A stretch of 64,000 nt of DNA from Candidatus Poribacteria bacterium (GCA_003635265.1 PYIZ01000053.1:62001-126000), one strand, 5' to 3'; positions 38,243-50,531 are shown, counted from the first letter of the stretch. The notes: generated from the letters alone by a model not told the origin. Numbers and translations: made by a program.

Positions 38243-41200
38243 CTAAGGCACCGGTGCTTCCAAAATCAGCAGTCCCAAATCGCTTGGAAACACCGGACCC
38301 GCCTCTGGCATCTGCGCTGCCCAGTAAATCGCTTGATTGTTGGATCGGTGAATGACAAAGTTGAACCCGATGCGGTTATGCTGTCGCGTTTTCAGGGGAT
38401 GAAATCCACGAAGCACGGGGAAAAATGGGATGCGCGCCTCGATAACATAGTAATTTGGCTGTTGTCTCACCGCGACATCGAGATCTGCTGCTTGATAGTT
38501 CGGGATAAATTCGGGTGCTCCCTGCCCGATATAGGGACGGTCACCATGAAAACCACCGCCTTTGGGACATATCCAAATAACATACCGGTTCGGATCGTTC
38601 GCCATCTGCAAGTAATTCGGCCTTTTGACGGCGTCCGGTTGGAGATCTATGTGCAACTCCAGCGCATCTGCATCGCGGTAATATTCGATGACATCTGGCA
38701 CAACGACATCTTCATCATAGATCTGTGCGAGCAAGTAGAGGTTATCTCGGTCCCACTGCAACCAGAGCAGCCCTTCATCTTGAGAGGTTTTGACGACTTT
38801 CTCAAGGGGCCAACCGTCCTCATGTCCATCAATCAACACCGGTCGATTTGTATGCGGCACCCAAGCGATAGAATTTGCGCGACAGCTTACGCTGATTTCA
38901 ACGTTGGTTTCACCTGTATCCGTAAGTCCATCTTCATAAGTTGCCCTGACAGTATCGCCACCAACCAGTCCAAGGATCGGTGATTGATCAACCCCCTCCG
39001 AAGGAGATGTTGATACGTCAACTATTGCTCGCCCATACTGTGTAGAAATCTGTCCCCGGAAGATATGGGAGTTCGCGTTCTCCTCATAGAGGATAATCGA
39101 TGTTTCCTGTGCTTCTGTCACAGCCTTTAGTTCTGTCGATTCAACCTTAAATGAATCGAGATTCAAGTCTGCATCCTCAAGTCGAAAATGAAGGGGAAGA
39201 CCTACATTAAAATGCCGAACTGGCGTACCGTCTTCCCGAGTGATTGCGAGATACCCACGAACGCCTTTGTTGGTGTAAGCGAAATCTTCGACGACGGGGT
39301 AGTTGACCCCCAGAAAAGTTGGTGTATAGGTTGCCCGTATCTCTTCGTCACCTTGTACGTCCAGCGTGTCATCTGCAATCGGTGTTGTGCCGTATCGGCT
39401 CGGAACAGAACCGATAAAAATGCCTTCAACGCCTGACTTCTTACGGAGTGTAACTCCAACTTCGTCCGCTGTTTTGTCGCCGGTGACTGTAATCTTGACT
39501 TCATCGGCTTCGACAACCGTGCTAAGAAGTAGATCTTCCAGCCAAAAGTAGATCGTTTGCCCGGCATTAAAGCTAGCTAATTCATGGGTTGATGCGAAAT
39601 CTTGCGGGGCGGCCGTGAAGATAGGAATTGCCGTTTCGGGATTAAACAGTGAATCAATAATGTGTGCATCAACGATGCGTAGCATTCCCGCGCTGCTGCC
39701 TAACACAACAGCTTGGGTTTCGGTCTGAACGTCAGTTTCGCCAGTTGCAGTAATTTCATCGATATATGCAGCGGTAATAACCTCTTTGTCCGTGATTTGC
39801 AGGATTTCATCCGTGGTGAGCGGTGTATCGCCTTCAATAATTGATGATTCCCCTTTTTGGGTTGGGAGATTACCCTCAAAAACTGCACTGTTAATAGATG
39901 TCTCGCGCACAATGATCTGAACATCATCAGCGACGACATTGCCCCAGACTACCACGTTCACACTGTCGGACAGCGTCGGAGATAGATTCAGGTCCTTATC
40001 TGTCAAACGAATTCTTAGCCTTTCACCTACGTTAAAGCTGCCGGTGCCCACAACAGAACCGCTGATAATCACCCCGCTGTCTGCGCTATAGATTTCCAAT
40101 TCACCTGTATCACCCGTTTCGACAGAAAGCCTCTCTTGAATAGGCACCAGTGTTGCGCCTGTGTTCTGTAGGGTATCGATATAGGTGCATATCACAACGC
40201 CTTCACCCTGTACCTGCAAGATGTTATCGTCTGGAATCGGGTCATTACCATAGGCGGTTCTAATCTCACCGCGAAAAATGTCCACACTATCCGCCGTTTT
40301 AGCCAATATCACACTGGCACTATCCCGACCCGTAACTTCAGTGAAATCGGTTTCAAGCAGCTGTGCGATTACCTCTGTGCCGTCTAGATCGGCGTCTTGG
40401 ATTTCCAAAATCAACGTATCGCCAGCTCGGAAACTTGATATCTCAAGATTTTGAGCCAAGGCATAATCAAAATTGTTCTTGTTATAGACTCTGAGTTTCC
40501 CACTGATGCCAATATTTGCCGTACAGGTATCATAAAATACCACATTAGTTTCACCTGTCGATTGCAGTTCGTCGACATAGATGGCTTGCACCTGCTCCGT
40601 TCCTCGTACCTGTAAGATACCATCGTTCTCTTGGCCCTCTGTGCCGTATGCGGTTTGGATTAAACCGAAGAAAGTTCCTTCGACGGGGTAGATGCGTGTC
40701 CCTTCCTCCATGGATTGGAACAACCGTACTGTTTCTCGATCATTCACTGTTTCCCCAACGAGCGTGATTTGAACGAATTCATCGGTGATGTCTGTGTCGA
40801 GGAGACGAAAGTAGAGTCTGTTTCCCGCATTGAAGTTTTCCAAACTGGTGACGTAATTCGCTGTGAGGATGTCGAGTACCCCGTTTTGTCCGGCACTGAC
40901 CTGCGCTGTGTCTGTGACCGTGACCTTCGTGTTTCCAGAGCCAGCTAGTGCGTCAACATAGCTGACTGTTACAGCCTCTTTTCCCGTGACTTCAAGCACA
41001 TCGTTGGTTAGGGTTGCGCTTGTTGCGTACCGGGTCCTAAATGTCCCTGTGAATTGACCCGAAACATCGTGCGCTTCTTTGAGGGCAAGTTGGTACTCAT
41101 CCTTGAGCCGATCGCCCTTTAGTAGAACGTGAACGGTTTCCTGTTGGTTCTCATCGCGGTTCAAATCTATGTCTTGCAACCGGACGCCGAGCGTACTGCC

Positions 41201-44200
41201 TGCCCTGAAAAATTTCTGATTATCCAATAATAGAAGATTGTCTGTCGAACCCAATTCAATTCGTGCCGTGTCGCCGATAGCAACGTCTGCTTGCGCGCTG
41301 ACCGGGACGTCCGTTTCGCCGGTAATCTGAATCTCATCCAAATAGATTGCTGCCACTCTCTGTGCGCCTAATGCTTCCAAGCGACCATTACGCGGTGTTG
41401 GAGTGGCATTGTAGCCCGTAACAACCGATCCAGAATAGTGTCCTTCCTTCGGTTGATAGATCAGTTTCACAGGCTCAACCTCTTGCATCTCCGGTACAAT
41501 ACACCTGACAGTTATCTCCGCATAGGGTGGTGTTGATGCATTAACCTCCTGATTCACTGAACTGCCTTCATCCGCGGATTTGCCTATTGCTTTGAGTAGG
41601 TCGGGATCTTCAACCTGTATGTAGAGGATTTCGCCAAGCTCAAATGCCTCAATCGGTTCGCCGGACTTCGTTGTTATTGCAATTGTCCCGGTCGATCCAG
41701 TATTCACTGTCACAGTGGTATTCACCGTTTGGTTTCGTTGGGTGCTGCTATAGTACGGATCGATGTATTTCAAGGAAACTGTTTCCTTACCGTGAACAAA
41801 AAGCGTTTGCGAATCTGTTCCGCCTTCCTCGTTACTGCCATAAGCGGTGGAAATCTTCGCAGCAAAGAGGGAACTGTTCTTCCCTAAATCGTTCTCTGAA
41901 TTATCATCAGCCCCGATTGCATCGGGATTCAAAGCAACAAGCGCGGGAAAGTTGGATTCACGGAGGGTAACTGGTATTAATTGACCGGATGTATCATTTC
42001 GCAATTCCGCTTCAATTGATTCCACCCGATGCCGATCTGTATTTCGATCAGCATCCCAGACACAGAGGGTCAGTGTGCTGCCAGCGTTAAACGACGAGAG
42101 CAATTCGGCTGCACGTCCATCCATGAACACAGTACTTCCACTGACTCGATTGATAAGCTCAACTTCATTCCAGCGGTTCGGTGGAGCGGTGAGTTCGTCT
42201 GAAGCGTAAGCGAGCCATCCAGATGGTCCCTTCGTCAGCTTGAGGTTAGTCATAATGTAATTGAAGCCGATAGAGCGGTCAAGCACTGGTTGAAACGCAT
42301 TTAACCCCAGATCTTTAGGGATTCTAGCTTCGAGGATATAACCACTCTCTGTTTTCGCAGCCTCCACTTCAATGTGTTCGTGGAAATCGATGTTTTGTGG
42401 AATGGCATCGAGGTGATGGTGGATCTGCGATGGATGCACCCGAGGTTGAGGACGCTGTGGATTGTGGATGGTCAAAACGAAGTGGTGTTCACTGGGCGTG
42501 TACATCCCCGGAGAACCTGTCCGCATCGTATCAATAAACAGATGCAATGCCTCGTCCCCGCTGGATTTTTGCTGCGTCGGAGGTGGTTCTGTATCTCGAT
42601 TGATAATTGCTGCGATATAAAAATTGTCATCAGCCCACTGTGCATATAGCACCACAGGCGAATCCGCAGGGTTGTCGTAGTTTTGAGGAAGCATTGGGTA
42701 AAGCAGGGGCCACTCATCTAGCGTTCCGTCAATTACGATTTGCTCGCTCATGCGAATCGCCTGCCCGATTGTTTCGTCACTCGATTCTGCTGATTCAATG
42801 GCAGTGCTGACCGCTCCGATGGTTGGATTGGCTTCAAAGATTGAGAGCTCCGAAACCGCTGCATTCGGTCCCGCCAAACGGTTAAAGTTGAGGACAATCT
42901 CGCCATCGGCATACGCCTCACGTGGGAGCCCGTAGGTGTAGGACTCAGCCTGACCTTTCGGAGGGACCAGTGCGTCGTGCAGCAGAAATCCGTCAACATT
43001 GAGGTTCTGTATCCGGCTGCCGCTCCTTTCCTGAAGATAGGTTACTTTCAGCCAGTATAATAGCGCCGGTTGTAGATCTGTGAATCTGAGGCTGACCATA
43101 TCATAATGGTAAGCAAAGCTCCTCTGACTCGGTGTATTGCCCGCCTCCACCGCATCGGGGCCCTCACCTTCTGGCAGTCGATAACGGTTTTCATCGCCGG
43201 TATCCCTATCAAACGCAAAACCTTGTACCAGATGTGGTGCTAATACGTTTCCGCCCTCTCCCATATTTTCATAGTGCATCTGTACTGCGTTGTACTCATC
43301 TAGTCTGTTGTCAGTCGGAGGGGGTAACCGGTAGGTGTCCGTGAAAATCTCAAACTCTCGAATCTCAGGATAATCTCCGTACCAATCCCCCTGCTCAATC
43401 TGCAAGCGGACGTAACGTCCTGATATCGGCGGCTGAAATTGACGTAGGTGGGTAACCGTTTCATCAACAAGTGTGTGAGACGCAAAGACCTCCCTATATT
43501 CCTGTCCGTCGTCGCTGACGGAAAAGTGATACCGCTTCAGATTGTTGCCGGGACCGTCTGTCGTCAGACGCACACCGTAGATCTGCTGATTTGAGCCGAG
43601 ATCGCCAATCACTTGAATCTCGCTTGTCGGTGCCTTAAAGGAGATTTCCACCACTTTCTTTCCATCCCCTTGCGTTGCCTTGTTTTCTATTCGTTCTGCG
43701 CCGATCCATTTAGCGTTCTCAAAGGGAAGGAGGTCCGTCAGTCGTGGGAGGTCAGCGACGTTGTAGTTGGCATTGAGCACCAAAATTGGGCTATGGGGTT
43801 GATAGCGGGGACCGACGCGAAACGCATCTTTTTGCAGTTGCGGCTTGCTACTGAACCAGTCGTTGATAACGACTTGCACCCAGCGCGCTTCAACCGGAAG
43901 GGGAAATGCCTGTCGGGGATATGTATATTCGCGGGAACTACCTGTATAAGAAAAGGCCCGTTCAAACCGCTGCCCAGTCCGATTGGTGTGAACAAGGAGG
44001 TCATATTGCCTAGGACCGCTCTCATCGGGGTTCTCGAAGCGGATTTCTGCCTTATCAATCCTGTACACGAACCCCAGATCGTACGTTGTGACAATCGGAT
44101 CCGTTCGCAGAATGCCCGTGTAGTGGAGTGGTTCATTATCAAGCGTGCGAACAGGTGCGATAAAATCCTGATCGTCAACCGGAGTAACCTCTCCACGCGG

Positions 44201-44257
44201 AAAAAACAGGAATCCGAGAAGCAGCGCACTTCCGCCAAGTATCAGATACTTTATCAT
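38243..44257 (-). CDS. giant secreted modular protein: discoidin-like, two CBM9-like domains, Ig-like repeats
   Basis: 2004 residues, the largest gene here. It starts with a hydrophobic signal (LILGGSALLLGFLFF). The first 330 or so residues contain two discoidin-like beta-sandwich stretches (VYRIDKAEIRFENPDESG, GVRLTTDGPGN). Around 495-715 a CBM9/DOMON-like domain begins IVIDGTLDEWPLLYP. About seven degenerate repeats of 130-170 residues follow, each with a FNAG...L.D.DLN strand, an F.G.I.T.YG strand and an A.Y.DEIT.TGET strand. A second CBM9-like domain (VLIDGHEDGWPLEKV) closes the protein. Probably an extracellular or surface carbohydrate- or matrix-binding protein. The promoter at 44330 and terminator at 38168 make it a single-gene unit. 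Confidence 0.85.
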   Translation of the reverse strand: MIKYLILGGSALLLGFLFFPRGEVTPVDDQDFIAPVRTLDNEPLHYTGILRTDPIVTTYDLGFVYRIDKAEIRFENPDESGPRQYDLLVHTNRTGQRFERAFSYTGSSREYTYPRQAFPLPVEARWVQVVINDWFSSKPQLQKDAFRVGPRYQPHSPILVLNANYNVADLPRLTDLLPFENAKWIGAERIENKATQGDGKKVVEISFKAPTSEIQVIGDLGSNQQIYGVRLTTDGPGNNLKRYHFSVSDDGQEYREVFASHTLVDETVTHLRQFQPPISGRYVRLQIEQGDWYGDYPEIREFEIFTDTYRLPPPTDNRLDEYNAVQMHYENMGEGGNVLAPHLVQGFAFDRDTGDENRYRLPEGEGPDAVEAGNTPSQRSFAYHYDMVSLRFTDLQPALLYWLKVTYLQERSGSRIQNLNVDGFLLHDALVPPKGQAESYTYGLPREAYADGEIVLNFNRLAGPNAAVSELSIFEANPTIGAVSTAIESAESSDETIGQAIRMSEQIVIDGTLDEWPLLYPMLPQNYDNPADSPVVLYAQWADDNFYIAAIINRDTEPPPTQQKSSGDEALHLFIDTMRTGSPGMYTPSEHHFVLTIHNPQRPQPRVHPSQIHHHLDAIPQNIDFHEHIEVEAAKTESGYILEARIPKDLGLNAFQPVLDRSIGFNYIMTNLKLTKGPSGWLAYASDELTAPPNRWNEVELINRVSGSTVFMDGRAAELLSSFNAGSTLTLCVWDADRNTDRHRVESIEAELRNDTSGQLIPVTLRESNFPALVALNPDAIGADDNSENDLGKNSSLFAAKISTAYGSNEEGGTDSQTLFVHGKETVSLKYIDPYYSSTQRNQTVNTTVTVNTGSTGTIAITTKSGEPIEAFELGEILYIQVEDPDLLKAIGKSADEGSSVNQEVNASTPPYAEITVRCIVPEMQEVEPVKLIYQPKEGHYSGSVVTGYNATPTPRNGRLEALGAQRVAAIYLDEIQITGETDVPVSAQADVAIGDTARIELGSTDNLLLLDNQKFFRAGSTLGVRLQDIDLNRDENQQETVHVLLKGDRLKDEYQLALKEAHDVSGQFTGTFRTRYATSATLTNDVLEVTGKEAVTVSYVDALAGSGNTKVTVTDTAQVSAGQNGVLDILTANYVTSLENFNAGNRLYFRLLDTDITDEFVQITLVGETVNDRETVRLFQSMEEGTRIYPVEGTFFGLIQTAYGTEGQENDGILQVRGTEQVQAIYVDELQSTGETNVVFYDTCTANIGISGKLRVYNKNNFDYALAQNLEISSFRAGDTLILEIQDADLDGTEVIAQLLETDFTEVTGRDSASVILAKTADSVDIFRGEIRTAYGNDPIPDDNILQVQGEGVVICTYIDTLQNTGATLVPIQERLSVETGDTGELEIYSADSGVIISGSVVGTGSFNVGERLRIRLTDKDLNLSPTLSDSVNVVVWGNVVADDVQIIVRETSINSAVFEGNLPTQKGESSIIEGDTPLTTDEILQITDKEVITAAYIDEITATGETDVQTETQAVVLGSSAGMLRIVDAHIIDSLFNPETAIPIFTAAPQDFASTHELASFNAGQTIYFWLEDLLLSTVVEADEVKITVTGDKTADEVGVTLRKKSGVEGIFIGSVPSRYGTTPIADDTLDVQGDEEIRATYTPTFLGVNYPVVEDFAYTNKGVRGYLAITREDGTPVRHFNVGLPLHFRLEDADLNLDSFKVESTELKAVTEAQETSIILYEENANSHIFRGQISTQYGRAIVDVSTSPSEGVDQSPILGLVGGDTVRATYEDGLTDTGETNVEISVSCRANSIAWVPHTNRPVLIDGHEDGWPLEKVVKTSQDEGLLWLQWDRDNLYLLAQIYDEDVVVPDVIEYYRDADALELHIDLQPDAVKRPNYLQMANDPNRYVIWICPKGGGFHGDRPYIGQGAPEFIPNYQAADLDVAVRQQPNYYVIEARIPFFPVLRGFHPLKTRQHNRIGFNFVIHRSNNQAIYWAAQMPEAGPVFPSDLGLLILEAPVP

Positions 44258-44917: not shown

Positions 44918-47377
44918 CTACTCCACCGATTTTTTAATTTCGCTCTTTATCAAGTCGATTATGTTCATCCGTTGGAGAGCGGCACGAATCTGATCAATCG
45001 GAATTGGGTCAGCACTTGCCCCCCAAACATCGAAACGCGCCTCATTGTCAACCGCGACTGCGAGCAGCCGTCCGTCGTGGTAAACAAGCGCGTCGCCTCT
45101 GATGATTTCGCCCGGTTTGAAAGGTCTCGCAACCGTCAACGTTGTCACTTTTCCGTGGTTGTCAATTTCGAGTTCCATGACGCCCACCGACCGTTCAGTT
45201 GGCCGTTCAACGGCGCGCCGATGAATTTCCGGGGGTAAATTGGGAAAATTGGGATAGCCGCGTGTGGAGATCGCCGCTATATTTGGGTACGTGTAACCAT
45301 CTTCTGGATTGGGTAATGGAATCGGAATGTACTCCCGCAGGTCCTCCACGTTTCCAAGCACGACGGGTCGCAAATCTGTCTGCCCGTCGACCTTCACTAT
45401 TGCTAATCCGCTGTCCCAGTCGATAGCGACAACTTTAGCGGATCGATAATCGACGATTTTGACACGGATGGTCTCTGCTTCTGTCACGTTTGCAGGCACG
45501 AGGATATGACCGACTTGGCTCAGAATAACGCCCGTGAAGATTTCACCGTCTACTTTGACCGCCACGAACGATTTATGTGCGTCAGATAGATCTTCTGCAT
45601 ACATTTCGCGTTTCCGGTTTGCTTCAAGCGAATGTCTATTGGCTTCGGTTAATGGCGTTTCTGCGATGAGTTTCTGAAATTCAGGGATGTCCTGAATCGC
45701 TGCAAAACGTTCCGGTTGTTCTTTTGCATAGTTGATGGCAGAGTTATTGTCATCCTCATCGTGTGCAACCGCTATCTGAAACAGCGCCCACGTTTTTTCT
45801 CGGTCGCCTTGCCGCGAGCAGAAAGTCGCCAACTCAAGCGCCTCACTTACGATAACATCTCCTAGGCTTGGAGTTGCTTGGCTCGCTTCGACAATCCGAT
45901 CATATGCTTCATTCATCCATGCCGTTGCGTCACCCCCTCGCGGTCGTTTTTGGTAGAGCCCCGACATCATAAGTTCAAATTTGCGATAGCGAACCTCCCA
46001 CATGATGTAGGGATTGTCTGGCATGAAAGCGAGGAGTTTTTCGTATTCGGCAATGACTTCTTCCTGTTCGTCTACCCTATTGGCACGAAGTTGACTGATT
46101 CGGGGAATGATACGTTCGCCAGCAACGTCTGTGTCCTCCGCGAGCAATGCTTTTACCAAGTGTTCGACTGCCGAATCTTCCAGCGCGAAACCGTGTGCAC
46201 TCTCTCGAAGTATCCCCGCTTTATCAAGGATGACGTAGTAGGGCCAACCATCGACACCGAACTGATACGGTACGAGCTCGGGGTCAACGAGCAGGTGAAT
46301 GCCCGGCATCGCATGTGTTTCGACGAACTGCTTCAGCTTCGCTTCACTGCTTTGGGAACAGACGGTGACTAAGACAAAATCGGGATTTTCGCCGTACATT
46401 TTGTGCAACTGCTTGAGGTTCGAAATTTCCCCTCCCGTTTCGTCATTACTCACCGTTCGACCATCTCGCGTTGACCAGTGATAGAGCACAACCACTTTGC
46501 CACGCAAATCCTTCAACGAAACAGGGGTGCCATACACGCTAGTATGCGAAAATGCGGGGGCAGGTTTACCTAGGATAAGTTCGGCGCGAAGCAAGTTAAA
46601 TTCGTCCCATTTGGCTGAGTCCCCCATCCTTGCGTAAATTTGTCCTTTGCGGTCGTACACCTCGGGCAGCAACGCCGGGTCATCAATCCTATCCCACTCC
46701 GCAAGGGCTTCCTCGAATCTGAATTGGTTTTCAAGGCGATACGCACGGAGTTTACGGACCTTGTTGGCGTATTTCGAGGTTGGATGTTTCAAGAGAAACG
46801 CTTCAACGCTAATCTCAAATTCGTCATCCGATTTGAGATTGCGAACGTATACAAGTTTCTGATATAGAATTTCATCGTATCGTTCGCTTTCTGCATAGGT
46901 GTTGAGGAACTGCTCGCAGAGTTGCAGACCACGTTCCCACTTCTGCTGATATTGTTCGCGTCGCGCTGCTCTCTCTGCCTCCGTTGGATTTTCGGGTAGC
47001 GGATCCGGTTGGAACTTGTACACAGCCTGAATCTCCTGATACAGTGCTTGCTCCGGATCCACCGCTTCTGCCACCTGTACCACACCTATCGGCATAGCCA
47101 AACAGATAAGTGCGAGCAGCCCTATTACCACCCCTACCTTCGTCATGGGCATCCGATTCCGGCTTTCGGCAAGAATCGTTTGGAATTGCTCCCCAATTTT
47201 TGATGGTCGTACCATCACCACAGCGGACCGCAAAATAGAGCGCGCCATCGCTGGCTGACGACGCAGAATAAATCCGAATAATCCCGCCACAACGATAATC
47301 AGAAAACTTTTCATCGTAGCGTCAGTCAAGAATTTCAGCTGCAGGTTTATTTTTAGCGTTTCAATCAACGGTATCAT
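44918..47377 (-). CDS. paralogue of the M56 protein: thioredoxin-like plus degenerate HtrA-like domain
   Basis: 819 residues. The first 35 residues (MIPLIETLKINLQLKFLTDA) and the segment RPSKIGEQFQTILAESRNRM plus a transmembrane helix (VVIGLLALICLAMPIGVV) align with the neighbouring 47529 gene, but the M56 peptidase in between is absent. A helical TPR-like part leads to a TlpA/AhpC-type thioredoxin fold (LGKPAPAFSHTSVYGTPVSL, DLRGKVVVLYHWS) where the CxxC site is replaced by STRDGR. The C-terminus is HtrA-like (VILSQVGHILVPANVTEAE, WDSGLAIVKVDGQ, RGDALVYHDGRLLAVAVD), with all three catalytic positions lost (HV to NV, D to G, GNSGG to GDALV). The ATG overlaps the end of the small upstream ORF; AAGGAGG is 9 bases ahead. 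Confidence 0.8.
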   Translation of the reverse strand: MIPLIETLKINLQLKFLTDATMKSFLIIVVAGLFGFILRRQPAMARSILRSAVVMVRPSKIGEQFQTILAESRNRMPMTKVGVVIGLLALICLAMPIGVVQVAEAVDPEQALYQEIQAVYKFQPDPLPENPTEAERAARREQYQQKWERGLQLCEQFLNTYAESERYDEILYQKLVYVRNLKSDDEFEISVEAFLLKHPTSKYANKVRKLRAYRLENQFRFEEALAEWDRIDDPALLPEVYDRKGQIYARMGDSAKWDEFNLLRAELILGKPAPAFSHTSVYGTPVSLKDLRGKVVVLYHWSTRDGRTVSNDETGGEISNLKQLHKMYGENPDFVLVTVCSQSSEAKLKQFVETHAMPGIHLLVDPELVPYQFGVDGWPYYVILDKAGILRESAHGFALEDSAVEHLVKALLAEDTDVAGERIIPRISQLRANRVDEQEEVIAEYEKLLAFMPDNPYIMWEVRYRKFELMMSGLYQKRPRGGDATAWMNEAYDRIVEASQATPSLGDVIVSEALELATFCSRQGDREKTWALFQIAVAHDEDDNNSAINYAKEQPERFAAIQDIPEFQKLIAETPLTEANRHSLEANRKREMYAEDLSDAHKSFVAVKVDGEIFTGVILSQVGHILVPANVTEAETIRVKIVDYRSAKVVAIDWDSGLAIVKVDGQTDLRPVVLGNVEDLREYIPIPLPNPEDGYTYPNIAAISTRGYPNFPNLPPEIHRRAVERPTERSVGVMELEIDNHGKVTTLTVARPFKPGEIIRGDALVYHDGRLLAVAVDNEARFDVWGASADPIPIDQIRAALQRMNIIDLIKSEIKKSVE

Positions 47378-47499
47378 GATGGGGTGCCTCCTTTTTTCAT
47401 TTGTTCAAGGCATTGGTATAGATTCTGTATTGACACAAAGGAAAATCCGAAGAACAGAGATGTAATACCCATGCCACAAAACACCGATTCCATGTCCAT
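47374..47499 (-). CDS. 41-residue membrane protein, missed by the ORF track
   Basis: Starts ATG at 47499 and ends TGA at 47376-47374, overlapping the next gene's ATG by 4 bases (ATGA). The sequence MDMESVFCGMGITSLFFGFS has one transmembrane helix, and the end LEQMKKGGTPS resembles the BlaI C-terminus IEQAKKGGSPS, including the same ribosome binding site. This suggests a copy of the blaI end was duplicated with the downstream gene, now carrying a new N-terminus. The start has no strong ribosome binding site, so expression is uncertain. Confidence 0.5.
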   Translation of the reverse strand: MDMESVFCGMGITSLFFGFSFVSIQNLYQCLEQMKKGGTPS

Positions 47500-47528
47500 C
47501 GGTCCGGCAAAAATTTGGTAGCCAACTT

Positions 47529-49910
47529 CTACTGCGCTGGTTTCTTGCTTTGACTTTCCATCAACTCAATCATGTTCATTCGCTTGAGCGCGGCACGAAT
47601 CTGGTCGATTAGTAGAGGATTGGTAATTGCCGACCCAAACTTGTAACGCACTTCATTGTCAACGGCAACCGCAAGCAACCGTCCGTCATAGTAGACGAAA
47701 GCATCGCCTCCAATAATTTTACCAGTTGGAGTTCCAGCTTGCAGTGCTGCTACTTTCCCACCATCGTCGATTTTGAGTTCTTGGATACTGCCTCCCCGAT
47801 AGGTTGGGGTTTCAAAAGCGTTTTGATGAAATTCTGGAGGCAGATTAGGGGCATTGGGATAGCCGCGTGTGGAAATCACATTTATGGTCAAGTAGGTGTG
47901 ACCAACTATGGTCGGGGAGGTGGAACCAACCTCCGGGTAGAGATGCGGAATCGGGGCGTATTCCTGCAGGTCGTCTATGTTTCCAAGAACGATGGGACGT
48001 AGCTCCGTCTGCCCATCGACCTGCACGACTGCCAACCCGCTCTTCGAGTCAACGACGACAACCTTAGCGGGTTGATAATCGCCAATTTTGGCGTGAATCG
48101 TCTCTGCCTCTGTCACATTTGCAGGCACAAGAATATGACCGACTTGACTCAGGATAATCCCCGTGAAAATCTCACCGTCCGCTTTCACCGCCACGTACGA
48201 TTTAAGGGAGGCAAAGAAATCTTTCCAGTACATATCCTGTTTCCGGTCTGCTTCCATGCGTCGCTTGTCTGCTTCTATAATCTGCGAAAATTCGGGTGAA
48301 GATTTACCTAGGATAAGTTCGGCGCGAAGCAGATTAAATTCCTTCGCTTTTTCCGAATTGCCCATCTCGGCGTAAATGGTTGCTTTTCTCTCGTACTTTT
48401 CAAGTAGCAATGCTGGGTCATCAATCTTATCCCATTCAGCAAGAGCTTCGTCGTATTTGAACTGAAACTCAAGGATATACGCACGGCGTTTACGGAGATT
48501 ACTGGTATATTTCGAGGCCGGATATTCTGAGAAAAATGCTTCAACACCTTTTTCAAATTCAGCATCGCGTCTGAGCAAAGAGATGTATGTAAGTTTTTTA
48601 TAAAAAACTTCCTCATATCGGTTACTCTCCAAATAAGTATTAAGGAACTGCTCGCAGAGTTGGAGACCATGTTCCAAGTGCTGTTGAAGCTGTTCCAGTT
48701 GTGCTGCTTGCTCCGCTTCTGTCGCGGTTTCCGGCAGCGGCTCTAGTTGGAAATTCTCTGCCGCTTGAATTTCCTTATACAATGCCTGCTCTGGCCCCAC
48801 CGCTTCTGCCAACTGCATCACCCCCATCGGCACAGCAAAACAGATAAGCGCGAGCAACCCTACTGCTACTGCAATTCTTGTTATCGGACGCCGATTCCGG
48901 TTTTCGGCGAGAACTGTTCGGAGTCGCCCTTCAATTTTTGACTGCCGCGCCATCGCTACCGCTGACCTTGTGGCAGTGTTTATTTTTTTAATATTTCGCA
49001 CAGCATCGAGTAGATGTTGGGCGTAATCAGTTGATTGATACCCCGCGTTGAGTACGTGGTCATCACAGGTACGCTCTACTTCTGTCCGCATTCGACGTGC
49101 CGCAAACCAGACGAGCGGGTTAAACCAGTACACCGCACACGTTATCTGTGCTACTGTCTGCATCAACCAATCCTGCCGCTGGATGTGTGCCAATTCGTGC
49201 AGCAGTACAGCGCGTTGCCGTTCGGGTTCCCATTCGTCCGCATCGGCAGGTAACAGAATCACCGGTCGAAACAACCCCCACACCATCGGCACCGTGACTG
49301 CGTCGCTCTTACGCATACTGACCGCACGCTTCCAATCGGGAGGCACCTGTGAAATTAAACCATTGAAATCGTCGCTACAGGTGGAAACGTGCCAGACGGC
49401 ACCAATTTCCATCAGCAAACGGGCGATAAGAAACAGTGTGCCTGCCGTCCAACACACCGCTATCCAATCAGTCCAATGAAGCGAGGCAAGACCTATCCCC
49501 AACGTGTTTGATTGTCGGGTGGCAATCTCGCTAGTAGTGGCCTCCGGTTGAATGGGTGTCGGCGTAGCCTGCACTGATGACCTAGTAGCTGTTGGTAACG
49601 GGCCTGATGCTATTGGAACAGGGGAGACGGCTGCCTGCCTATTATCTGTCAGCTGGTCTACCTGAAATCGCTCAGGGGTTGCCGGCAGAACACCAACTTC
49701 CCACTGCGGAAGTGTGAGCGAGAAGAACGGTACAGCCAAGCATCCCACCAGTGCCAAACTCCAAACCAAACCGCGCACCGCCGCCGAGTGGCGACGCAGA
49801 ATGAAGCCGAGTAATCCCGCCACGGCGAACATCGCGAAACTTTTCATCGTAGCGTCAATCAAGAGTTTCAACCATATGTTTATTTCGAGAGTTTCAATCA
49901 ACGGTATCAT
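47529..49910 (-). CDS. BlaR1-like M56 peptidase fused to a degenerate HtrA-like domain
   Basis: 793 residues. The M56 half has four to five transmembrane helices and the zinc motif LLHELAHIQRQDW (His-Glu-xx-His) plus VERTCDDHVL. In BlaR1/MecR1 this half cleaves itself and the repressor when a signal binds. Instead of a penicillin-binding sensor, the C-terminus holds a helical region then an HtrA-like fold (SQVGHILVPANVTEAE, SKSGLAVVQVDG, GGDAFVYYDGRLLAVAVD) whose His, Asp and Ser positions are all replaced, so it is probably a binding sensor and not a protease. The ATG overlaps the BlaI stop (ATGA), so translation is coupled. No penicillin-binding motif was seen. Confidence 0.85.
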   Translation of the reverse strand: MIPLIETLEINIWLKLLIDATMKSFAMFAVAGLLGFILRRHSAAVRGLVWSLALVGCLAVPFFSLTLPQWEVGVLPATPERFQVDQLTDNRQAAVSPVPIASGPLPTATRSSVQATPTPIQPEATTSEIATRQSNTLGIGLASLHWTDWIAVCWTAGTLFLIARLLMEIGAVWHVSTCSDDFNGLISQVPPDWKRAVSMRKSDAVTVPMVWGLFRPVILLPADADEWEPERQRAVLLHELAHIQRQDWLMQTVAQITCAVYWFNPLVWFAARRMRTEVERTCDDHVLNAGYQSTDYAQHLLDAVRNIKKINTATRSAVAMARQSKIEGRLRTVLAENRNRRPITRIAVAVGLLALICFAVPMGVMQLAEAVGPEQALYKEIQAAENFQLEPLPETATEAEQAAQLEQLQQHLEHGLQLCEQFLNTYLESNRYEEVFYKKLTYISLLRRDAEFEKGVEAFFSEYPASKYTSNLRKRRAYILEFQFKYDEALAEWDKIDDPALLLEKYERKATIYAEMGNSEKAKEFNLLRAELILGKSSPEFSQIIEADKRRMEADRKQDMYWKDFFASLKSYVAVKADGEIFTGIILSQVGHILVPANVTEAETIHAKIGDYQPAKVVVVDSKSGLAVVQVDGQTELRPIVLGNIDDLQEYAPIPHLYPEVGSTSPTIVGHTYLTINVISTRGYPNAPNLPPEFHQNAFETPTYRGGSIQELKIDDGGKVAALQAGTPTGKIIGGDAFVYYDGRLLAVAVDNEVRYKFGSAITNPLLIDQIRAALKRMNMIELMESQSKKPAQ

Positions 49911-50296
49911 GATGGAGAGCCTCCTTTTTTCGCTTGCTCAATGAGTTGGCTTAAACGGTCAAGTTCCTCATCTGAAACTTCTGCATCGGAAACTAATGCT
50001 GCAACCGTTTTTTCGATCGATTTATCGAAGAAGGTCTGAACAATCTGTTTAAGCGCAGACTGTCCCGCCTGATGGCGCGGTTGCGTCGGACGATAGATAT
50101 AGCGGGTGCCATCCTTTTGGTGAGTGAGATGCCCCTTCTCCTCTAAAATCCGCAGTAAAGCCCGCACTGTCGAATAGCTGGGAGCATCTGGGAGGTTTTG
50201 GAGCACATCGGCAACCGACGCCTGACTATGTTGGTAAATAATGTCCATAATCTGCCGTTCGCGACGGCTCAGTTTTAGGGTGTGAGAATCTTTCAT
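49907..50296 (-). CDS. BlaI/MecI/CopY-family transcriptional repressor
   Basis: 129 residues. A winged-helix domain (LSRRERQIMDIIYQHSQASV, YSTVRALLRILEEKGHLTH, YIYRPTQPRHQ) is followed by a dimerisation helix (LKQIVQTFFDKSIEKTVAAL), the normal architecture. It should repress its own operon by binding the dyad at 50383-50404 and be inactivated when the M56 protein cleaves it. It is the first gene of the operon. Confidence 0.93.
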   Translation of the reverse strand: MKDSHTLKLSRRERQIMDIIYQHSQASVADVLQNLPDAPSYSTVRALLRILEEKGHLTHQKDGTRYIYRPTQPRHQAGQSALKQIVQTFFDKSIEKTVAALVSDAEVSDEELDRLSQLIEQAKKGGSPS

Positions 50297-50382
50297 GCCG
50301 TCCTCTTTTGAGGTGTTGGTTGTAAGTCCGAATCAGATTGAAATTCAGGGCAATCTGCTTGCTAGGCAACCCCATTTTGATA

Positions 50383-50421
50383 ACATGCTAATATTTTAGC
50401 ATGTGTAAAACGAGGCGTCAA
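50383..50421 (-). promoter_or_regulatory. promoter and BlaI-type operator of the BlaI-M56 operon
   Basis: On the minus strand TTGACG (forward 50416-50421), a 17-base spacer and TAAAAT (forward 50393-50398). A perfect 9-base dyad ACATGCTAA/TTAGCATGT at 50383-50404 covers the -10, as expected for a self-repressing BlaI-type regulator. The ATG of blaI lies about 87 bases downstream. Confidence 0.75.
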
Positions 50422-50531
50422 GAGAAAAATGCGAAAAATTTAGCAGAAAAGGAAAAGAGGAATTTGGAGGGGACAAAGGCGACTGATTGAGGGATCAACT
50501 ATCACCTATAGGACTTACGCAAAAAGTAGTA

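Follow-up and report, generated by a model that had tools for sequence, protein, structure and literature searches.

A poribacterial BlaI-M56 operon with inactive HtrA-like ectodomains and a protease-less receptor paralog

Related systems and layout of the operon

The BlaR1 and MecR1 ectodomains resemble class D beta-lactamases and, to our knowledge, discussion of BlaR1 almost always concerns antibiotic sensing. In BlaI-BlaR1 and MecI-MecR1, the gene after blaI encodes a membrane-bound M56 protease that has HExxH and ExxxD motifs and ends in an ectodomain, and two dyads lie at the promoter. BlaR1 has an N-out, C-out topology, and its Arg294, on the domain-swapped helix alpha9, reaches the active site of the partner subunit (PMC9834060). 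This core is already known, as are relatives that do not respond to beta-lactams, such as PetR-PetP of cyanobacteria, a BlaI/BlaR1-like copper switch (PMC7896320). An HtrA-family (S1C) protease-like domain has also been described in the external sensor role of a membrane-bound regulator, RsgI9 of Clostridium thermocellum, an anti-sigma factor with an S1C-NTF2 ectodomain (PDB 7sjy; PMC12203970).

The locus analyzed here lies on the minus strand of a 64,000-nt stretch (GCA_003635265.1, PYIZ01000053.1:62001-126000; hereafter the window, from whose first base coordinates are counted) from an uncultured member of the sponge-symbiont phylum Poribacteria. It is a three-gene operon in the order blaI, P1, P2, in which the P1 start codon overlaps the blaI stop:

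49907..50296, minus strand: blaI, 129-aa winged-helix repressor (PF03965, 2.9e-32; MecI/BlaI structures)
47529..49910, minus strand: P1, 793 aa, with four transmembrane (TM) helices, an M56 protease, a TPR-like stretch and an HtrA-like domain lacking the catalytic residues (pseudo-HtrA)
44918..47377, minus strand: P2, 819-aa M56-less tandem paralog of P1

The initial annotation had listed a BlaI repressor, an M56 peptidase with HELAH and two paralogs with HtrA-like C termini. These components are all present, but the M56 peptidase sits inside P1; because M56 and the HtrA-like domain form one polypeptide there, the operon comprises three genes rather than an M56 gene plus two paralogs. Both paralogs do end in an HtrA-like domain, but the TlpA/redoxin domain of P2 had been overlooked.

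The arrangement follows BlaI-BlaR1 and MecI-MecR1 in gene order, protease motifs and promoter dyads, but the class-D-beta-lactamase-like ectodomain is replaced by TPR and pseudo-HtrA modules (with TlpA in P2), a protease-less paralog lies within the operon, and BlaI has Leu in place of Phe at its presumed P1' position. PetR-PetP likewise joins a BlaI-family regulator to a BlaR1-family protease under a non-beta-lactam signal; it differs in responding to copper and in its plastocyanin/cytochrome targets, and no HtrA-like ectodomain is reported in the commentary (PMC7896320). RsgI9, the closest solved functional precedent, differs in signaling as an anti-sigma factor instead of through M56/BlaI and in having NTF2 in place of TPR/TlpA. 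DegS, DegP, DegQ and PepD share the protease-domain fold and sequence profile, whereas the catalytic residues and PDZ are absent from this system and the domain is fused to M56. In an incomplete literature search we met no account of an HtrA-like ectodomain on an M56 protein, nor of M56 twins lacking the protease, and nothing relevant turned up on M56 in combination with thioredoxin, HtrA or Poribacteria.

In BlaI, Penicillinase_R (PF03965) covers positions 1-115 of 115 (E = 2.9e-32), and the winged helix and dimerization region characteristic of the BlaI/MecI family are present over the full length. The alignment places Ala-Leu where MecI/BlaI have Asn101-Phe102. A Phe at P1' is almost invariant in MecI/BlaI (PMC9834060), and because the residue here is Leu, cleavage at the aligned site is not assured.

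The coding regions of P1 and P2 contain the following motifs and domains:

49185..49199, minus strand: P1 HELAH zinc motif, residues 238-242 (aligned to H201EXXH of BlaR1)
47138..47230, minus strand: P2 cytoplasmic M56 remnant, equivalent of BlaR1 helix alpha9 (P1-P2 alignment)
46178..46570, minus strand: P2 TlpA/redoxin domain, residues 270-400 (PF00578, 2.5e-8)

P1 matches the M56 family (PF05569, 3.4e-32) and the cryo-EM chain of BlaR1 (1.1e-9). Its second zinc motif, ERTCDD (residues 279-284), aligns with E242xxxD of BlaR1, and Arg329, invariant among 13 poribacterial M56 proteins, aligns with Arg294. The complete set of zinc-motif residues, supporting D and Y residues and partner-reaching Arg (H238-E239-H242, D247, E279, D283, Y296 and R329) is invariant in our alignment (A5). 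The intact zinc motifs, the match to the BlaR1 structure (1e-9) and the conserved operator dyads uphold the BlaI/BlaR1 logic proposed for the operon. A class-D-like beta-lactam sensor with SxxK was sought in the operon proteins, and the Pfam scan detected neither a transpeptidase nor a beta-lactamase domain; no gene for a beta-lactamase or a PBP was found in the operon. The P1 ectodomain consists of a TPR-like stretch and pseudo-HtrA: the start of a TlpA domain is retained (LGKSSPEFSQ), after which the protein jumps straight to pseudo-HtrA, the rest of TlpA being gone.

P2 aligns to residues 1-51 of P1 and resumes at P1 residue 315 without intervening sequence, with about 64% identity on both sides of the deletion. 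This in-frame deletion coincides exactly with TM2, TM3 and the zinc protease, and because TM1 and TM4 are kept, the topology of P2 should match that of P1 and BlaR1. In the equivalent of helix alpha9, the invariant Arg is replaced by Gln (SKIGEQF in P2 versus SKIEGRL in P1, by P1-P2 alignment). With its catalytic part deleted and this Arg replaced, P2 is, judged from its sequence, unable to cleave BlaI, a point that the initial annotation had overlooked. Its ectodomain contains TlpA/redoxin, TPR-like helices and the HtrA-like domain; the CxxC of TlpA, kept in several relatives, is replaced by STRDGR (HWSTRDGR, near 46457-46486). The DNA directly before the P2 start duplicates the 3' end of blaI.

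Upstream of blaI are three predicted promoter elements:

50430..50445, minus strand: upstream operator-like dyad TGCTAAATTTTTCGCA (exact pattern match in its own genome)
50416..50421, minus strand: -35-like TTGACG, flanked by the dyads (TTGAC at position -125 relative to the blaI start)
50383..50404, minus strand: main predicted operator dyad ACATGCTAAAATATTAGCATGT, overlapping the -10 region

The dyads TGCTAAAATATTAGCA and TGCTAAATTTTTCGCA lie 44 bp from each other and enclose a TTGAC, which occupies the equivalent place in relatives. A dyad pair at 42- to 44-bp spacing is present in 7 of the 9 loci examined, the exceptions being one with a single clear site (L034) and one with none (L032). 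The dyad core has only two exact copies in the 5.3-Mb genome, both at the blaI promoter, so the system looks self-regulated, and the conserved predicted dyads point to blaI autoregulation. A wider regulon was rejected: one-mismatch operator sites occur at about the control frequency, and no clear promoter context surrounds any of them. No target gene beyond the operon was found among one-mismatch sites genome-wide or in the gene neighborhood. Directly downstream of the operon (window positions 38243-44257, minus strand) lies a gene whose product is a surface protein of 2,004 aa containing F5/F8 type C and CBM9 domains; this gene also adjoins the operon in the same-genus genomes G003 and G004. 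Conserved within the genus only, it was rejected as a neighborhood target.

Fold and catalytic positions of the HtrA-like domain

The HtrA-like domains occupy the C termini of both paralogs:

47571..48218, minus strand: P1 pseudo-HtrA, about residues 565-780 (His site Asn598, Asp site Gly625)
44969..45592, minus strand: P2 pseudo-HtrA, residues 596-803 (alignment, AlphaFold, Foldseek)

The HtrA fold ascribed to these C termini in the initial annotation is confirmed by profile searches, AlphaFold and Foldseek. TIGR02037 matches both paralogs (4e-5 and 7e-5), a nine-member profile (A1) searched against the PDB returned solely HtrA/DegP/DegS/DegQ-type chains among its best 60 matches (best, 3e-5), and comparing profiles of the domain and of seven true poribacterial HtrAs gave an E value of 8e-10. 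The AlphaFold model of the P1 domain is only moderately confident (pLDDT 72, pTM 0.73), and that of whole P2 has a pLDDT of 74. Foldseek, queried with these predicted structures, recovered DegP, DegS, HtrA1 and PepD at about 1e-8, with target-normalized TM scores up to 0.74, and nearly all of its top 50 matches belong to the HtrA family. These matches span about 230 alignment columns. Together, the profile and structure results predict a complete HtrA protease domain that lacks a PDZ; Pfam scans detected no PDZ domain, and the proteins stop just after the last protease helix.

Where the true HtrAs have TNHHV, SDLALL and GNSGGA, the window copies have, in register, VPANV, SGLAVV and IGGDAFV or IRGDALV, placing N (PANV), G (SGLA) and G or R (before GDAFV or GDALV) at the triad positions. 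Aligned to true poribacterial HtrAs, both copies have thus lost His, Asp and Ser, as had been claimed. Global and local hhalign fixed the register of the N lobe and misplaced the C lobe of pseudo-HtrA against HtrA, and the Ser-site assignment rests on the MAFFT alignment together with the Foldseek coverage of about 230 columns. His and Ser are absent from all 9 aligned members, and Asp survives only in C55a and C55b of genome G009 (SDLA); because these distant relatives retain Asp, the triple loss is not family-wide.

Distribution and history of the receptors

Phylum searches located the pseudo-HtrA domain in 5 of 85 poribacterial genomes, and the related loci recovered from GTDB genome contigs by a single ten-residue motif scan were all in poribacterial metagenome-assembled genomes. 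The canonical members (G009 C55a and C34a, G012 C52 and C160, and G006 C16) are each one polypeptide, about 1070-1085 aa long, located behind blaI, with the order M56-TM-TPR-TlpA-TPR-pseudoHtrA. Because P1 has only the start of TlpA and P2 has TlpA but no M56, the two are, as read from their domain order, reciprocal in-frame deletions of tandem copies of this M56-TPR-TlpA-TPR-pseudoHtrA form. The family has two branches, one in which the TlpA cysteines are kept wholly or partly and another, including the window copies, in which they are lost. The branches are clean in trees, and the split of P1 and P2 with respect to G003 is not resolved. Pairwise dN/dS values of 0.13-0.24 for the M56, TPR, TlpA and pseudo-HtrA segments (comparisons of P1, P2 and G003) indicate that purifying selection has constrained both P1 and P2.

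Broken copies occur in relatives: an in-frame TGA immediately precedes pseudo-HtrA in G003, G009 C55b has a frameshift, and C34b has a stop and a shift, suggesting that some copies are decaying, although the breaks may also be assembly errors. The G003 TGA (around position 7650 of L030) interrupts a single full-length gene in the linker that joins TPR2 to pseudo-HtrA, and an ATG lies about ten codons later. In G006_C10 (L033, 5608-8043), M56 is fused directly to pseudo-HtrA without TPR or TlpA, and a weak GH115_C-like beta domain (E = 0.006) follows; a similar tail occurs in G009_C55b (L031, 8950-10737).

M56 proteins are present in 48 of the 85 poribacterial genomes. Of 60 M56 loci taken, 57 had an M56-like ORF, 49 of these with an adjoining blaI-like ORF. 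The pseudo-HtrA domain is confined to the 5 genomes found in the phylum searches, and a local HMM search of the tails tested listed no HtrA-like match in other M56 proteins; on these two results we reject the idea that the domain is general among poribacterial M56 proteins. Pfam recognized TlpA as the commonest ectodomain among 53 M56 tails (18 tails), along with ExbD-like (13), LTD (9) and HEAT (6) matches. HEAT repeats (L135, L139, L142) and, by eye, WD40-like repeats (L141) are eukaryote-like repeats.

Among 20 extended loci, 17 have an M56-less ectodomain paralog next to M56. Twelve of the 20 were picked for a paralog already seen, and 5 of the other 8 yielded one as well; in 4 of the 17 the ectodomain is matched only partly. 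Because such paralogs recur in poribacterial loci, P2 is an instance of a recurring arrangement. Several have signal-peptide-like starts and an intact CxxC, and an LTD-type locus (L164) holds a copy that, like P2, lacks the M56 core yet keeps a TM4-like segment. At L158 (1088-6771), four consecutive TPR-TlpA ectodomain paralogs without M56 stand behind one BlaI-M56 pair.

A proposed switch and its alternatives

We favor, at a probability of roughly 0.55, a transmembrane proteolysis switch of the BlaI/BlaR1 type, with a modular sensor and with P2 as a protease-less co-receptor or decoy. BlaI would bind the two predicted dyads at its own promoter and repress the operon. P1, N-out and C-out as in BlaR1, would engage an envelope ligand or partner through its periplasmic TPR and pseudo-HtrA modules, whereupon its cytoplasmic M56 domain would cleave BlaI and the operon would be derepressed. 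P2, predicted to keep the membrane frame of P1 (TM1 and TM4) and to have TPR1 and pseudo-HtrA in common with it but no protease, would join P1 in ligand or oligomer contacts and exert feedback as it accumulates; a protease-less co-receptor or decoy is its most likely role. We infer the cleavage of BlaI by P1, the binding of a signal by pseudo-HtrA and the damping or co-sensing by P2.

The part played by pseudo-HtrA in such a switch can be read in several ways. The initial annotation had a dead protease replacing the beta-lactam sensor; a pseudo-protease is indeed part of the ectodomain, but it is not the sole replacement, being one module of TPR-TlpA-TPR-HtrA. Its further suggestion, that the domain senses misfolded peptides, found no specific support, because PDZ, the peptide-recognition module of DegS and DegP, is absent. 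The broader form of that view, in which the domain would sense unfolded envelope proteins or peptides much as a chaperone does, draws on the HtrA homology, on envelope stress as the usual HtrA theme and on the capacity that a noncatalytic fold could have to hold peptides; we consider it unlikely, as DegS senses peptides by its PDZ, whereas Pfam scans detect none here and the active-site region is rebuilt. By analogy with RsgI9, whose S1C domain is among the Foldseek matches and whose S1C protease-like domain is reported to bind cellulose (PMC12203970), pseudo-HtrA might instead sense a glycan or polymer. The weak GH115_C-like domain of G006_C10, the similar tail in G009_C55b and the CBM9/F5-F8 surface protein directly downstream would suit such a sensor, but the window copies have no extra C-terminal domain, binding residues could not be mapped, and the CBM9/F5-F8 neighbor is not conserved outside the genus, leaving this reading improbable.

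HtrA domains trimerize, and pseudo-HtrA could be a structural or oligomerization module, the real sensor being the TPR/TlpA part. TlpA is the commonest recognized ectodomain and pseudo-HtrA is rare, which earns this view some tentative credence; nevertheless, P1 lacks TlpA yet combines M56 with pseudo-HtrA, and the TlpA cysteines are lost in the window's branch. Decay of a tandem duplicate, with P2 as a nonfunctional remnant, would account for the reciprocal deletions and the broken copies in relatives. Both deletions are in frame, however, both ORFs are open and the topology of P2 is preserved, the pairwise dN/dS of P2 versus G003 is about 0.13-0.17, and protease-less paralogs recur across the phylum, all of which make decay distinctly unlikely.

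Beyond the proposed proteolysis switch, a more speculative extension, to which we give little weight, is a general poribacterial receptor platform of M56, swappable ectodomains and protease-less copies, in which P2 would form a BlaR1-like domain-swapped dimer with P1 and act as a built-in damper by presenting Gln to the partner's active site in place of the required Arg, and the dead HtrA would bind ligand. The protease-repressor core appears to serve other inputs in Poribacteria, with TlpA, HEAT, WD40, LTD and pseudo-HtrA ectodomains swapped like cassettes, and many loci encode a protease-less twin of the receptor ectodomain alongside. The dead HtrA fold would represent a second kind of regulator with an S1C ectodomain, after the anti-sigma factor RsgI9, and P2, with its altered swapped helix, offers a direct test case for the proposed BlaR1 domain-swapped dimer mechanism.

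The genome contains one other BlaI-M56 pair, on contig C39 (L003, 1107-3597), which has a carboxypeptidase-regulatory-like ectodomain and its own upstream dyad, TAATACTAATACATTAGTATTA.
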